NCBI GenBank assembly: GCA_021820845.1
Contig: JAKADC010000001.1
Span: forward strand, 1-64,000
DNA length: 64,000 bases
Direction: 5' to 3'
DNA from: Pseudomonadota bacterium
GTDB lineage: Bacteria; Pseudomonadota; Gammaproteobacteria; Burkholderiales; Thiobacillaceae
Made by a program: the position numbers and the translations under genes. This document shows, one piece after another, positions 10,544 to 18,417 of this stretch. Position 1 is the first letter of the stretch. Each line of letters begins with the position of its first letter. The notes under the pieces were generated by a model, which had not been told where the DNA came from, did not search any database, and was given only the letters and a program-made list of their open reading frames with translations.

Positions 10544-11488
10544 ATGGCGACTCAACCCAACCAGGCGCTTCCAAACGGATACCGGCTGAACGAATACACC
10601 ATCGTGCGCAAGATCGGCGGCGGCGGCTTCAGCATGGTCTATCTGGCGCGCGACGACAGCAACCGCTCGGTGGCGATCAAGGAGTACCTGCCGGGCGCGC
10701 TGGTGCTGCGCACCGAGGGGTCGGTCATCGTGCAGGCCAACTCGACCGAAAACAACAACATCTTCCGCCACGGCATGAAGTGTTTCTTCGAGGAGGGCCG
10801 GGCGCTCGCGCTCATCGACCATCCGAACGTCGTGCGCGTCGTCAACTTCTTTCGCGCCAACGACACCGTATACATGGTCATGCGCTTCGAGCGCGGCAAG
10901 ACCTTGCAGCAGCACATCCAGGCCAACCGTGGCACCATCGGCGAAAGCTTCATCCGCCGCGTGTTCGCGCAGCTCCTGAACGGGCTGCGCGAGGTGCACA
11001 CGCACAAGCTGCTGCATCTCGACATCAAGCCGTCGAATCTCTACATCCGCCTGGACGGCTCGCCCGTTCTGATCGACTTCGGCGCGGCGCGACAGACGTT
11101 GACGCAGGAGGAAACCCGGCTTCAGCCCATGTACACCCCGGGATTCGCCGCGCCCGAGCAGTATCACAACCGCGAGCGGCTGGGGCCGTGGACCGATATC
11201 TACAGCGTGGGCGCCAGCCTGTACGCCTGTCTGGCCGGCTATCCTCCGCAGGCCGCCGACGCGCGGCTGCTCAACGACAAGCTCGTTCCCGCGACGGTGC
11301 ACTGGCGCGGCACCTACTCGGACCAGCTGCTGGAAACCGTCGACCAGTGTCTGAAGCTCAATTACATGGAGCGCCCGCAGAGCGTCTTCAGCCTGCAGAA
11401 AGTGCTGATGGACCGCAGCGCGATGACCTCGCCGCGCGCTTCCTTGCTGTCCAGCATCAAGCGTTCGCTGAACCGCGAGTTGTTCTGA
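10544..11488 (+). CDS. Hanks-type serine/threonine protein kinase
   Basis: Soluble eukaryotic-like kinase of 314 aa without a membrane segment. Visible elements: glycine loop GGGGFSMVYLA (~residues 26-36), VAIKEY lysine, catalytic loop HLDIKPSN, metal-binding DFGAAR and activation-segment end APEQY. The catalytic loop reads HLD instead of HRD, so it is a non-RD kinase. A PP2C phosphatase gene follows after 19 bp, suggesting a reversible phosphorylation switch. The pair lies between yicC and rph, an order I associate with betaproteobacteria. Substrates are not deducible from the sequence. Confidence 0.9.
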   Translation: MATQPNQALPNGYRLNEYTIVRKIGGGGFSMVYLARDDSNRSVAIKEYLPGALVLRTEGSVIVQANSTENNNIFRHGMKCFFEEGRALALIDHPNVVRVVNFFRANDTVYMVMRFERGKTLQQHIQANRGTIGESFIRRVFAQLLNGLREVHTHKLLHLDIKPSNLYIRLDGSPVLIDFGAARQTLTQEETRLQPMYTPGFAAPEQYHNRERLGPWTDIYSVGASLYACLAGYPPQAADARLLNDKLVPATVHWRGTYSDQLLETVDQCLKLNYMERPQSVFSLQKVLMDRSAMTSPRASLLSSIKRSLNRELF

Positions 11489-11507
11489 CGATGGCACCCG
11501 GACTGAA

Positions 11508-12416
11508 ATGAAATTCACCATCTACCAGGCGTCGCGCCAGGGCGGCCGCAAGAACAACCAGGACAGGGTCGCCTATTCCTACAGCCGGGAGGCGCTGCTG
11601 ATGGTCGTGGCGGACGGCATGGGCGGCCACCTGCACGGCGAGCTCGCCGCGCAGATCACGGTCCAGACGCTGACCGACCAGTTCCAGAAAATGGCGCGGC
11701 CCCGCCTCGACGACCCGATGGCGTTCCTCGCCGACACGACGACGCGCGCGCATTTCGCCATCAACGATTACGCGGTCGACGAGGATCTGCTCGAGATTCC
11801 CCACACGACGGTGGTCGCGGCCATCGTGCAGGACAACGTCGCCTACTGGGCGCACGTGGGCGATTCCCGCCTGTATCTGTTCAGCGACGGCCAGCTGATC
11901 GCGCGCACCGAAGACCACACGGCGGTCGCGCAACTGGTGCGCGACGGCATCATCAGCGAGGAAGAGGCCGGCCACCACCCGGAACGCAACAGGGTGTCCA
12001 ACTGCCTGGGCGGCTATGTGACGCCGCAGGTGGAATGCAGCGCGCCGATCCCGCTGCACGACGCCGACACCATGCTGCTGTGCACCGACGGCATCTGGGG
12101 CATGATCAACATCCCGGAAGTGTCGGCGCTGCTGCATGCGTACACGCTGGAAGACGCGGTGCGCCATCTGATGGACCACGCCGAATTCCGCGGCGGCGAG
12201 CACGGCGACAACCTCAGCCTCATCGCCATGACGTGGGGCGAGGCGCGCATGCCGAGCAAGGATTCGATCTCCACGCTCGCGCTGCCGGACGGCGGCGTCA
12301 CCACGCAGATCAACGCGCTGCGCCCCATGCACGGCGCGCCGGCGGTGTCCGACGACGAGATCGAGCGCGCCATCGCCGAAATCCAGCAGGCGATCCAGAA
12401 GATTTCCCGCAAATGA
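11508..12416 (+). CDS. PP2C-family protein serine/threonine phosphatase
   Basis: Metal-dependent phosphatase likely opposing the upstream kinase. Motifs: NNQDR near residue 20, VADGMGGH (metal-binding Asp and Gly) around residue 37, [20 protein letters not shown] and GDNLSLIAM with the last metal Asp. These cover the PP2C core within about 245 residues. The C-terminal ~55 residues are a linker with charged helix and no recognisable domain. Length 302 aa. It is cytoplasmic, with no signal or transmembrane segment. Confidence 0.92.
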
Positions 12417-15156: not shown

Positions 15157-15945
15157 ATGAAAACTGCAGTTGCCTTGTCGTTGTTCCTCTTCAGTTCGTC
15201 CGCCCTTGCCGCCGTGGTCGTCAAGGACGTCACCTACAAGGCGGGCGACACCGCCATGAAGGGATTCCTGGCGTATGACGATGCGGCCAAGGCCAGGCGG
15301 GCCGGCGTGCTGGTCGTGCCCGAGTGGTGGGGCGCCAACGCGTATGCCCGCAAGCGCGCGCACATGCTGGCAAGCGAAGGCTACGTCGCGCTCGTCGTCG
15401 ATATGTACGGCAACGGCCGGACGACCGACGATCCCAAGGTGGCGGGCGCGCTGTCGGAGGGCGTGAACAAGAATCCGGCCCAGCGGCTGGCGCGTTTCCG
15501 CGCGGCAGAAAGTTTTCTCGCTGCGCAGCCCAACGTCAAAAAAGGCGAGATCGCCGCGCTTGGCTACTGCTTCGGCGGGGGCGTGGTGCTCAACATGGCA
15601 CGTGCGGGCGAGCCGCTCAAGGCGGTGATCACCTACCACGGCGTGCTGGCCACCGACACGCCGGCGAAGCCGGGGGACATCAAGGCGAAGCTCGCCATCT
15701 TCCACGGCGAAGCCGATCCCATCGTGCCGGCGGCGCAGCTCGCGGCGTTCAAGGCCGAGATGGACAACGCCCAGGTCGATTACATGCTGGTGACCTATCC
15801 CGGCGCCAAGCATGCCTTCACCAACCGCGAAGCCGACAGCTACGCGGCCGAGTACGGCCTGCCGGTCAAATACGACCCGGCGGCCGACAAGGATTCCTGG
15901 ACACGGACGCTCGAGTTCCTGCGGGCGACGCTCGACAATGACTGA
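15157..15945 (+). CDS. Secreted dienelactone hydrolase family protein
   Basis: Alpha/beta-hydrolase of 262 aa with a Sec signal peptide (MKTAVALSLFLFSSSALAA), so probably periplasmic. The nucleophile elbow GYCFGGG has the Cys typical of dienelactone hydrolase. HGEADPIVP supplies the Asp and GAKHAFTN the His of the Cys-Asp-His triad. GGAG lies six bases before the ATG at 15157; the ORF-track start at 15064 is not needed. It overlaps the next gene by eight bases. The physiological substrate is unknown; the family includes carboxymethylenebutenolidase and general esterases. Confidence 0.88.
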   Translation: MKTAVALSLFLFSSSALAAVVVKDVTYKAGDTAMKGFLAYDDAAKARRAGVLVVPEWWGANAYARKRAHMLASEGYVALVVDMYGNGRTTDDPKVAGALSEGVNKNPAQRLARFRAAESFLAAQPNVKKGEIAALGYCFGGGVVLNMARAGEPLKAVITYHGVLATDTPAKPGDIKAKLAIFHGEADPIVPAAQLAAFKAEMDNAQVDYMLVTYPGAKHAFTNREADSYAAEYGLPVKYDPAADKDSWTRTLEFLRATLDND

Positions 15946-16585
15946 CGCCTGCGATCACGACGACTGCCATGCGCCGCCCGGCCCCGGCAGCCTCGGCATT
16001 CCGCAGGTCGGGCCATTCGACCCCGCCGCGTTCGAACGCGCGGTGAACGACATGCTCGTGGCCTGCGGTGTGGCGCCCGATTCGGTGCATACCGGACGCA
16101 CCGCGCAGCGGGTGCGCGAGCTGTGGCAGCGCCGCCTGCTCGGCGGCTATGCGATCTCGCCCGCCGAGGCGCTGGGCGAGGGCTTTGCCGATGCGCGCGA
16201 CGACATGGTGGTGGTGCGCGGGATCGCGGTGCACGGCGTGTGCCCGCACCACCTCGTGCCGTTCCGCGGCGTCGCCCACGTCGCCTACATCCCCGGCGGG
16301 CGATTGCACGGCTTCGGGCGCATCGCGCGCATGGTCGACGCGATCGGGCACCGCTTCACGTACCAGGAGTGGATGACGCGCGACATCGCTGAAGCACTGG
16401 TGACGCACGGGCACGCCCGGGGCGCCGCATGCATCGTCGAAGCCGAGCAGTTGTGCCTGCTCCTGGGCGAGGACCGGCGCGGCGACGAGCGCGTGGTCAC
16501 GCAGGCCTTCACGGGCTGCTTCAGGACGAGCGACCAGCAGCGGAACGAATTTCTGCGTGCCGTGGCGCAATCCGATTTGCGCTGA
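15938..16585 (+). CDS. Divergent GTP cyclohydrolase I family protein
   Basis: A 215-aa protein that aligns without gaps to E. coli FolE over its catalytic half (recalled sequence). Retained: zinc ligands Cys102, His105 and Cys173; His104; the guanine-recognition pair Gln143-Glu144; Arg58 and Arg131. Replaced: the CEHH motif is CPHH; the position of FolE His179 is Gln171; Ser135-Lys136 is Gly127-Arg128; Arg185 is Gly177; Lys68 is Glu61. His179 is needed for the full reaction in E. coli, and the others bind the triphosphate. The fold is FolE, but classical GTP-to-dihydroneopterin triphosphate chemistry is doubtful. It overlaps the dienelactone hydrolase gene by eight bases. Confidence 0.8.
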   Translation: MTDACDHDDCHAPPGPGSLGIPQVGPFDPAAFERAVNDMLVACGVAPDSVHTGRTAQRVRELWQRRLLGGYAISPAEALGEGFADARDDMVVVRGIAVHGVCPHHLVPFRGVAHVAYIPGGRLHGFGRIARMVDAIGHRFTYQEWMTRDIAEALVTHGHARGAACIVEAEQLCLLLGEDRRGDERVVTQAFTGCFRTSDQQRNEFLRAVAQSDLR

Positions 16586-16692: not shown

Positions 16693-16720
16693 TTGACACA
16701 TACCAACCGGTATGTATGAT
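16693..16720 (+). promoter_or_regulatory. Sigma70 promoter of the tetR operon
   Basis: TTGACA and TATGAT are separated by 16 bp, a near-consensus pair, seven bases upstream of the tetR ATG at 16727. It is the best promoter match in the window. The operator palindrome fills the spacer. Confidence 0.85.
16698..16715 (+). promoter_or_regulatory. TetR-type palindromic operator
   Basis: ACATACC-AACC-GGTATGT is a perfect 7-bp inverted repeat around a four-base spacer. It spans from the last base of the -35 to the first base of the -10, so bound repressor would block RNA polymerase. Position and symmetry indicate autoregulation by the adjacent TetR gene. Confidence 0.82.
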
Positions 16721-16726
16721 TCGGCC

Positions 16727-17332
16727 ATGAACGTCACAGGCAAAACCCCCGACCGCACCCGGCAAAGACTGCTGGAGGCCGCGTTCGCAGAAATCCATCG
16801 CAACGGCTTCCAGGCGGCGTCCATCACGCAGATTCTGGCGGACACCGGACTCACCAAAGGCGCGCTGTACCACCATTTCCCGGACAAGAAGGCGCTTGGC
16901 CTGGCCGTCGTCGACGAGATGATCCGGCCTGCGATCGCCGCAATGATGTTCACGCCGCTGGCGGACACGCGGCAACCTTTGGCCGCGTTGCAGGCGCTGC
17001 TCGCTGCCAAGGCGGCGGAGACGGACCCCGAGGTCCTCACCCTGGGCTGCCCGCTCAACAACCTGATCCAGGAGATGAGTCCGGTCGACGAGAGCTTCCG
17101 CCTGCGGCTGAACGCCGTCTTCCAGGCCTGGGTCGAAGTGGTGGCCACGGCACTCGAGCGCGGCAAGGCGAGCGGCGAGGTGCGCACCGACATCGACGCG
17201 GCAGCCGCGGGGTTCTTCATCGTGTCGGCGCTCGAAGGCTGCGTCGGCATGAGCAAGAACACGCAATCCGTCGCGGCCTACCGCAGCTGCCTGGCGCAGC
17301 TCGGCAGTTTTCTGGACACGCTGAAACGCTGA
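16727..17332 (+). CDS. TetR/AcrR family transcriptional regulator
   Basis: The N-terminal ~55 residues form the TetR HTH (RQRLLEAAFAEIHRNGFQAASITQILADTGLTKGALYHHFPDKKAL). The C-terminal ligand domain resembles the TetR_C group found with YxaF/LmrA-like regulators (DPEVLTLGCPLNNLIQEMSP); that assignment is tentative. The start is the ATG at 16727; the ORF-track start at 16712 would lie inside the operator. Length 201 aa. It probably represses its own operon, which continues with a short ORF, a methyltransferase-like protein and a carboxymuconolactone decarboxylase-like protein. Confidence 0.9.
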   Translation: MNVTGKTPDRTRQRLLEAAFAEIHRNGFQAASITQILADTGLTKGALYHHFPDKKALGLAVVDEMIRPAIAAMMFTPLADTRQPLAALQALLAAKAAETDPEVLTLGCPLNNLIQEMSPVDESFRLRLNAVFQAWVEVVATALERGKASGEVRTDIDAAAAGFFIVSALEGCVGMSKNTQSVAAYRSCLAQLGSFLDTLKR

Positions 17333-17883: not shown

Positions 17884-18417
17884 ATGAGCATTCTGCAGAC
17901 CGTCAAGCCCGAGGCCGCAACCGGCGAAGTCGCCGAAATCTACGCGCAGATTCAAAAAGCCTGGGGACACGTGCCAGCCGCGATCCAGGTGTTCAGCGCC
18001 AACCCTTTCCTGCTGAGGCACCAGTGGGAGTACTACGGCAGCGTCATGCAGCATCCGACGCTTTCGCTGGCGCTGACGGCGTGCATCCGGATGCTGGTGT
18101 CGCAGGCCGGCCATTGCGACTACTGCATCGACATGAACGCTGGCTTGCTGATCAACGCGGCCGGGTGGACGCCGGAGCAGGTCGCCGCCACCCGCGCCGA
18201 CTTCAACGCCAGCCCCCTGAGCGCGGCAGAGAAGACGCTGCTGGCCCTCGTGCTGAAGGCGACGCGCGATTCCAGCACCGTGACCGAGGCGGATCTGCGG
18301 GGCGCCCGCGCCGCCGGCTGGTCGGACGGCGACATCCTGGACGCCGTCAATCACGGTGCGCGCATGGTTGCGGGCGACATCGTCATCAACGGCTTCAAGG
18401 TCGAACGCGATTTCTGA
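17884..18417 (+). CDS. Carboxymuconolactone decarboxylase/AhpD-like family protein
   Basis: A 177-aa all-helical protein of the CMD/AhpD fold. The active-site region reads HCDYCIDMN (Cys78, Cys81). Redox-active AhpD-type members have CxxCxxxH; here the fourth residue after the second Cys is Asn85, so the His of the proton relay is missing. C-terminal DILDAVNHGARMVAGDIVINGF is typical of the alkylhydroperoxidase-like group. It is the last gene of the TetR operon, 18 bp after the ICMT-like gene with a GGAG site. Peroxidase activity is uncertain because of the His loss. Confidence 0.82.
   Translation: MSILQTVKPEAATGEVAEIYAQIQKAWGHVPAAIQVFSANPFLLRHQWEYYGSVMQHPTLSLALTACIRMLVSQAGHCDYCIDMNAGLLINAAGWTPEQVAATRADFNASPLSAAEKTLLALVLKATRDSSTVTEADLRGARAAGWSDGDILDAVNHGARMVAGDIVINGFKVERDF

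Follow-up and report, generated by a model that had tools for sequence, protein, structure and literature searches.

A conserved subfamily of FolE-fold proteins in Burkholderiales with a fixed loss of the second catalytic histidine

In the window, a stretch of 64,000 nucleotides from a genome of the family Thiobacillaceae, we found a gene on the forward strand (15938..16585, ATG to TGA) encoding a FolE-like protein of 215 aa, P0001. FolE is GTP cyclohydrolase IA, the first enzyme of folate synthesis, and ordinary FolE is a homodecamer that converts GTP to dihydroneopterin triphosphate and formate. Profile match, alignment, tree and an AlphaFold2 model placed P0001 in a subfamily of FolE-fold proteins carrying glutamine in place of the catalytic histidine His179 (Q179 subfamily). 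This subfamily with its fixed loss of the catalytic histidine is real, conserved and apparently unnamed; a literature search for a FolE paralogue of this type found no paper. Judged from its sequence, the gene very probably encodes a neofunctionalised FolE paralogue distinct from the folate enzyme, and it would have a single origin as judged from the sampling within Burkholderiales. Our best overall explanation, to which we assign a probability of about 0.5, is that this paralogue is still a predicted zinc hydrolase acting on a guanine-type compound.

Gene identity and annotation

The sole Pfam match of P0001 was PF01227 (E=6.3e-49), and the FolE2 domain PF02649 gave no match. A longer open reading frame starting at 15812 is disfavoured, since relatives share the Met start of P0001 (72 of 84 distinct relatives). 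With the FolE equivalog model TIGR00063, P0001 scored 114.2 bits and thus below the cut-off of 181.6, as did two relatives with 106-112 bits, whereas the controls E. coli FolE (286.7 bits) and an ordinary FolE from Thiobacillus (227 bits) scored above it. P0001 exceeded the cut-offs of two broader NCBIfam subfamily models named FolE, NF006825 (206.1 vs 174) and NF006826 (190.5 vs 162), both of which also match ordinary FolE from other groups, and this explains its likely database annotation. The label "FolE" on P0001 is an over-annotation.

Alignment register and predicted fold

An earlier note on this DNA had described a gap-free alignment to E. coli FolE through the active site, and this was borne out. 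The MAFFT alignment contained no gaps from P0001 residue 84 to the C-terminus, and its register was anchored by 17 residues common to at least 95% of all sequences, including Arg65, Cys110, His112, His113, Arg139, Gln151, Glu152 and Cys181 (three-letter code and E. coli numbering for E. coli FolE, one-letter code for P0001). The E. coli reference sequence is identical at every residue to PDB entry 1fbx. The structural check of the register that the note had proposed was also run. The AlphaFold2 model of P0001 (monomer, from a mixed alignment; pLDDT 87, pTM 0.83) matched solved FolE chains from M. tuberculosis, Thermus, Listeria, human and E. coli, with a best E of 7.5e-19 and an rmsd of 1.4-2.9 Å over about 180-200 residues. 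Given this match of the predicted fold, mis-registration of P0001 on FolE appears unlikely.

P0001 begins with a Cys/His motif, MTDACDHDDCH (residues 1-11, window 15938-15970), which is kept in the subfamily (C5 in 78/84 and H7 in 77/84) and which E. coli FolE does not have. The model is disordered in this region (pLDDT <50), and the motif is possibly an extra metal site.

Active-site residues kept and replaced

In Thermus FolE, His110 (E. coli His112) helps to open the ribose and perhaps to cleave C8-N9, His177 (His179) serves in N7 protonation and promotes N7-C8 cleavage, Ser133 (Ser135) holds the 2' and 3' hydroxyls of the ribose, and Glu150 (Glu152) takes part in guanine reading (PMC4005822). 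The phosphate-binding basic residues in the same structure are Lys134, Arg137, Arg183 and Arg64 (PMC4005822), which correspond by alignment to E. coli Lys136, Arg139, Arg185 and Arg65. Human GCH1 Arg216, equivalent to Arg185, coordinates the beta and gamma phosphates (PMC7750480).

By alignment, the metal and guanine sites are kept in P0001. The motif C102-P103-H104-H105 (16241..16252, forward strand as for all following features) retains the zinc ligands Cys110 and His113 and the catalytic His112, with Glu111 replaced by Pro, and Q143-E144 (16364..16369) is the guanine-reading pair Gln151-Glu152. In Q171-L172-C173 (16448..16456) the zinc ligand Cys181 is kept and Gln stands in for the catalytic His179. 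Further replacements are G127-R128 (16316..16321) for the ribose-binding Ser135 and phosphate-binding Lys136, G177-E178 (16466..16471) for Arg185-Gly186, and E61 for Lys68. Zinc ligands C102, H105 and C173 and catalytic H104 were kept in 84/84 distinct relatives, and G127, R128, Q171, G177 and P103 were likewise invariant in 84/84; the column of E61 held E in 77 and D in 7. The earlier note had named the retained zinc ligands and guanine pair as well as the substitutions of His179, Arg185, Ser135-Lys136, Lys68 and CEHH (now CPHH), and all of these are indeed present.

Two of the substitutions do not mark an altered pocket as the note had assumed. Lys68 to E61 and Glu111 to P103 were dropped as diagnostic evidence because both columns vary in ordinary FolE, with K, R, A, N or E at column 68 and with S or C as well as E at column 111. 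We compared a wider set of 35 FolE-like and 80 ordinary FolE sequences; the ordinary ones were the E. coli enzyme together with proteins encoded in Pseudomonadota genomes and on actinobacterial, rhizobial, cyanobacterial and clostridial replicons. At each of seven columns (108, 135, 136, 149, 179, 185 and 186), all 80 ordinary FolE carried one fixed residue and the subfamily another (34-35/35), His179 thus being present in 80/80. Three of these differences were absent from the earlier note, namely Ser108 to G100, Gln149 to T141 and Gly186 to E178. Ser135 was kept by one distant subfamily member only (L211, among the 35). The 17 residues shared by FolE-like and ordinary FolE proteins include all zinc ligands, His112, Gln151, Glu152, Arg65 and Arg139.

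The note's phrase of a stripped triphosphate pocket is overstated. Arg65 and Arg139 are kept, Lys136 is now Arg and only Arg185 is lost; with three of the four phosphate-binding residues left, the FolE-like protein may still bind GTP. Several residues are newly invariant in the subfamily (H51, H124, H138, Y142, W145 and a GEDRRGDER loop including R180-R181), and together they may form a different pocket. Read from the sequences, zinc-water activation, His112 and guanine reading are retained, and the picture is one of altered sugar and outer-phosphate contacts with the second catalytic histidine missing. We count against our explanation that H51, H124, H138 and R180-R181 could restore the lost functions.

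A single constrained clade

Relatives were collected from 60 related genomes and GTDB contigs, giving 84 distinct proteins from Thiobacillus, Parasulfuritortus, Hydrogenophilaceae including Tepidiphilus, Gallionellaceae, Sulfuricella, Sulfurimicrobium and Sulfuriferula. In a maximum-likelihood tree the subfamily formed one side of a branch with 100/100 support, with a stem of 3.44 changes per site and a shallow crown, so that the substitutions do mark a single clade, a question the earlier note had posed. A long stem under a shallow crown fits one burst of change with strict conservation thereafter. Because the tree is midpoint-rooted and the stem is long, the parent lineage among ordinary FolE is not readable from it.

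The gene was found in 36 of 300 genomes sampled across Burkholderiales, in nine families. In a phylum-wide sample of 398 genomes (E<=1e-45), matches occurred only in the window's genome and in one genome of the same family. Spread by plasmids was rejected, as no plasmid match exceeded 60% identity.

Against nine relatives the FolE-like gene showed dN/dS values of 0.055-0.106, indicating purifying selection. Among 20 holder genomes (190 pairs) the median identity was 78.6% for the FolE-like protein and 79.8% for FolE2, suggesting that it is conserved about as well as this housekeeping folate enzyme. A pseudogene or relaxed paralogue was rejected on the basis of dN/dS and conservation. One relative's copy of the gene contains an internal TGA.

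These data also bear on the earlier note's option of a non-catalytic paralogue, a zinc- or nucleotide-binding protein with a regulatory or structural role. The lost catalytic histidine and the added N-terminal Cys/His motif would fit such a role. The intact zinc site and strictly conserved pocket disfavour it: zinc ligands, His112 and guanine pair do not vary, nor do the residues that replaced others in the pocket, which fits a working site better than a relic, and we regard it as improbable.

Two further observations concern other FolE lineages. Another divergent FolE lineage within Burkholderiales (L201-L203, L246-L253; stem 2.31 changes per site) carries CSHH for CEHH, with His179, Lys136, Arg185 and Ser135 all intact. 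In the genus Thiobacillus, ordinary FolE (L163-L178) occurs as two unrelated types across species and is missing from other species; this patchiness suggests repeated gain and loss.

Other GTP cyclohydrolases in the holder genomes

The window's genome (99.98% complete) encodes one PF01227 gene, that of P0001, and one FolE2 (G000:C17:39541-40290), the latter found by the genome search for a second folE or folE2 that the earlier note had proposed. Together with the clade-defining substitutions, this separate FolE2 supports the note's view that P0001 is not an ordinary FolE. Another GTP cyclohydrolase was present in 54/54 holder genomes checked, FolE2 in 53/54, and the sole holder without FolE2 (G286) carries a further PF01227 gene whose catalytic residues are those of ordinary FolE. 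Since another GTP cyclohydrolase always coexists, the FolE-like protein is not needed for folate.

P0001 could still be a GTP cyclohydrolase I, an additional supplier of dihydroneopterin triphosphate for the synthesis of folate, queuosine or a tetrahydropterin cofactor, with other residues substituting for His179 and Arg185. Its intact zinc site, His112 and guanine pair, three of four phosphate residues, the new invariant histidines H51, H124 and H138, and its passing of two NCBIfam models named FolE would all be consistent with this. We nevertheless consider it unlikely, because His179 is invariant in the 80 ordinary FolE and its replacement abolishes the activity of E. coli FolE (PMC4005822), and because every holder checked has FolE2 or a second FolE. 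Moreover, a pterin-dependent aromatic hydroxylase match was found in 1/36 holders vs 66/264 non-holders, and a PTPS/QueD match in 30/36 holders with 6/36 lacking it, so that the FolE-like gene shows no link to the evident additional outlets for dihydroneopterin triphosphate. A tetrahydropterin cofactor role was rejected, there being no link to PhhA or PTPS.

Gene neighbourhood

The FolE-like gene is preceded by a gene for a secreted dienelactone-hydrolase-family protein (PF01738; 15157..15945), which overlaps its start by 8 bases. It is followed by genes for a TetR-family regulator (PF00440/PF16925, by profile matches; 16727..17332), a PEMT/ICMT-like membrane methyltransferase (PF04191; 17395..17865), which is the commonest neighbour in the subfamily, and a carboxymuconolactone decarboxylase (CMD) or peroxidase-related protein (PF02627; TIGR01926 below cut-off; 17884..18417). 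The coupling to the hydrolase that the earlier note had found odd for a folate gene is real and kept in nearly all Thiobacillus loci, where the hydrolase is likely a co-translated partner, but it is lineage-specific: in other holders a DUF2238 membrane-protein gene or something unrelated lies upstream.

Thiobacillus loci run from the secreted dienelactone hydrolase through the FolE-like protein to the PEMT-type methyltransferase, often with TetR and the CMD peroxidase-like gene between or after. Other lineages have DUF2238 membrane protein, FolE-like protein, PEMT, cytochrome b561 and two YceI lipocalins; this run is conserved at five loci (L083, L084, L097, L100 and L105), with DUF2238 abutting the FolE-like gene. 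In further lineages a nitroreductase and a TetR-CMD pair lie by the FolE-like gene, and the locus is often near hemW. No partner or pathway gene recurred in all of the sampled FolE-like loci.

The methyltransferase lies within 7 kb of the FolE-like gene in 66/101 loci, many of which are close Thiobacillus relatives. It was detected in 12/36 holders vs 17/264 non-holders (odds ratio 7.3, p=2e-5, with genomes counted as independent and relatedness ignored). As 24/36 holder genomes were without it at the threshold, it was rejected as an obligate partner; it is associated, not required.

Downstream of the FolE-like gene lies a promoter-like site, TTGACA-N16-TATGAT (11/12; 16693..16720), with the palindrome ACATACCAACCGGTATGT (16698-16715) between the hexamers. 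This palindrome is kept in many Thiobacillus relatives and at L122, L123, L146 and L161, and it has one perfect copy in the genome. It lies just ahead of the TetR gene and is a likely autorepression operator. Given this site, the TetR operon is probably separate, and the FolE-like gene probably belongs with the hydrolase. Control of the FolE-like gene by TetR was rejected, as the sole perfect palindrome is at the TetR promoter downstream of it.

The neighbours bear on another explanation, in which the protein acts on damaged or unusual guanine nucleotides (e.g. oxidised or deoxy) in defence against peroxides or electrophiles. Such substrates would suit a protein without Ser135, which contacts the ribose 2'/3'-OH, and without Arg185, which contacts the beta and gamma phosphates, and redox-type neighbours occur in several lineages: cytochrome b561 with YceI lipocalins, which in B. 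cenocepacia provide lipid-peroxyl defence (PMC9113575), a CMD peroxidase-like gene, a nitroreductase and a PerR/Irr-like Fur. By analogy with B. cenocepacia, this redox flavour is a lead only. We hold the explanation to be quite improbable, because the neighbours differ by lineage, several holders have none of these genes, and the single perfect palindrome is not at the FolE-like gene.

Elsewhere in the window (10544-12416, forward strand), a Ser/Thr protein kinase gene (PF00069) adjoins a PP2C-phosphatase-like open reading frame, and the pair is flanked by a yicC-like gene and by rph-like, rdgB-like and hemW-like genes; except for the kinase and hemW, these names were given by eye.

Proposed reaction and significance

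For the preferred explanation, a neofunctionalised zinc hydrolase, we propose a guanine-type ring opening without the ordinary His179-dependent release of formate, a mechanism we rate at somewhat under even odds. Zinc-bound water and H104 would cleave C8-N9 in the imidazole ring of a guanine-type nucleotide or nucleoside, and the His179-dependent formate release would not proceed in the ordinary way. Either the end point would be a formamidopyrimidine, or the substrate would be a guanine compound other than GTP, carrying fewer phosphates or another sugar. The formamidopyrimidine end point is proposed by analogy with His179 mutants of E. coli FolE (Bracher 1999), which reportedly stop at a formylamino intermediate. 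That the subfamily represents a natural FolE group with a new cyclohydrolase activity, either opening a non-GTP guanine nucleotide or halting at the formamidopyrimidine, is a tentative proposal that we consider possible rather than probable.

If true, the new activity would feed or clear an undescribed metabolite in sulfur- and iron-oxidising betaproteobacteria, and the subfamily might lead to a novel reaction that opens purines, or to a novel metabolite of pterin-like or pyrimidine type. A natural clade in which loss of His179 is fixed would show how the FolE pocket behaves minus its second catalytic histidine. As standard models call the subfamily FolE, its function is probably misannotated in many genomes.

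Comparison with known systems

The run from DUF2238 to YceI resembles the lcoA-bcnA lipid-peroxyl defence pair and has extra genes. FolE2 (GTP cyclohydrolase IB, PF02649) shares its annotated enzyme class with P0001 and can supply folate in nearly all holders, but P0001 has no PF02649 and FolE2 is a separate gene in the window's genome. With FolE (GTP cyclohydrolase IA; PF01227, TIGR00063) P0001 shares the fold, the zinc ligands, His112, Gln151-Glu152, Arg65 and Arg139. It differs in the changes His179 to Gln, Arg185 to Gly, Ser135 to Gly, Lys136 to Arg, Ser108 to Gly, Gln149 to Thr and Gly186 to Glu, in its TIGR00063 score under the cut-off, and in the second GTP cyclohydrolase always found in the holder genome. 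The His179 mutants of E. coli FolE lack the same histidine as P0001 and supply the model for the formamidopyrimidine end point; they are laboratory point mutants of one enzyme, whereas P0001 belongs to a naturally occurring clade in which six other changes are fixed as well.
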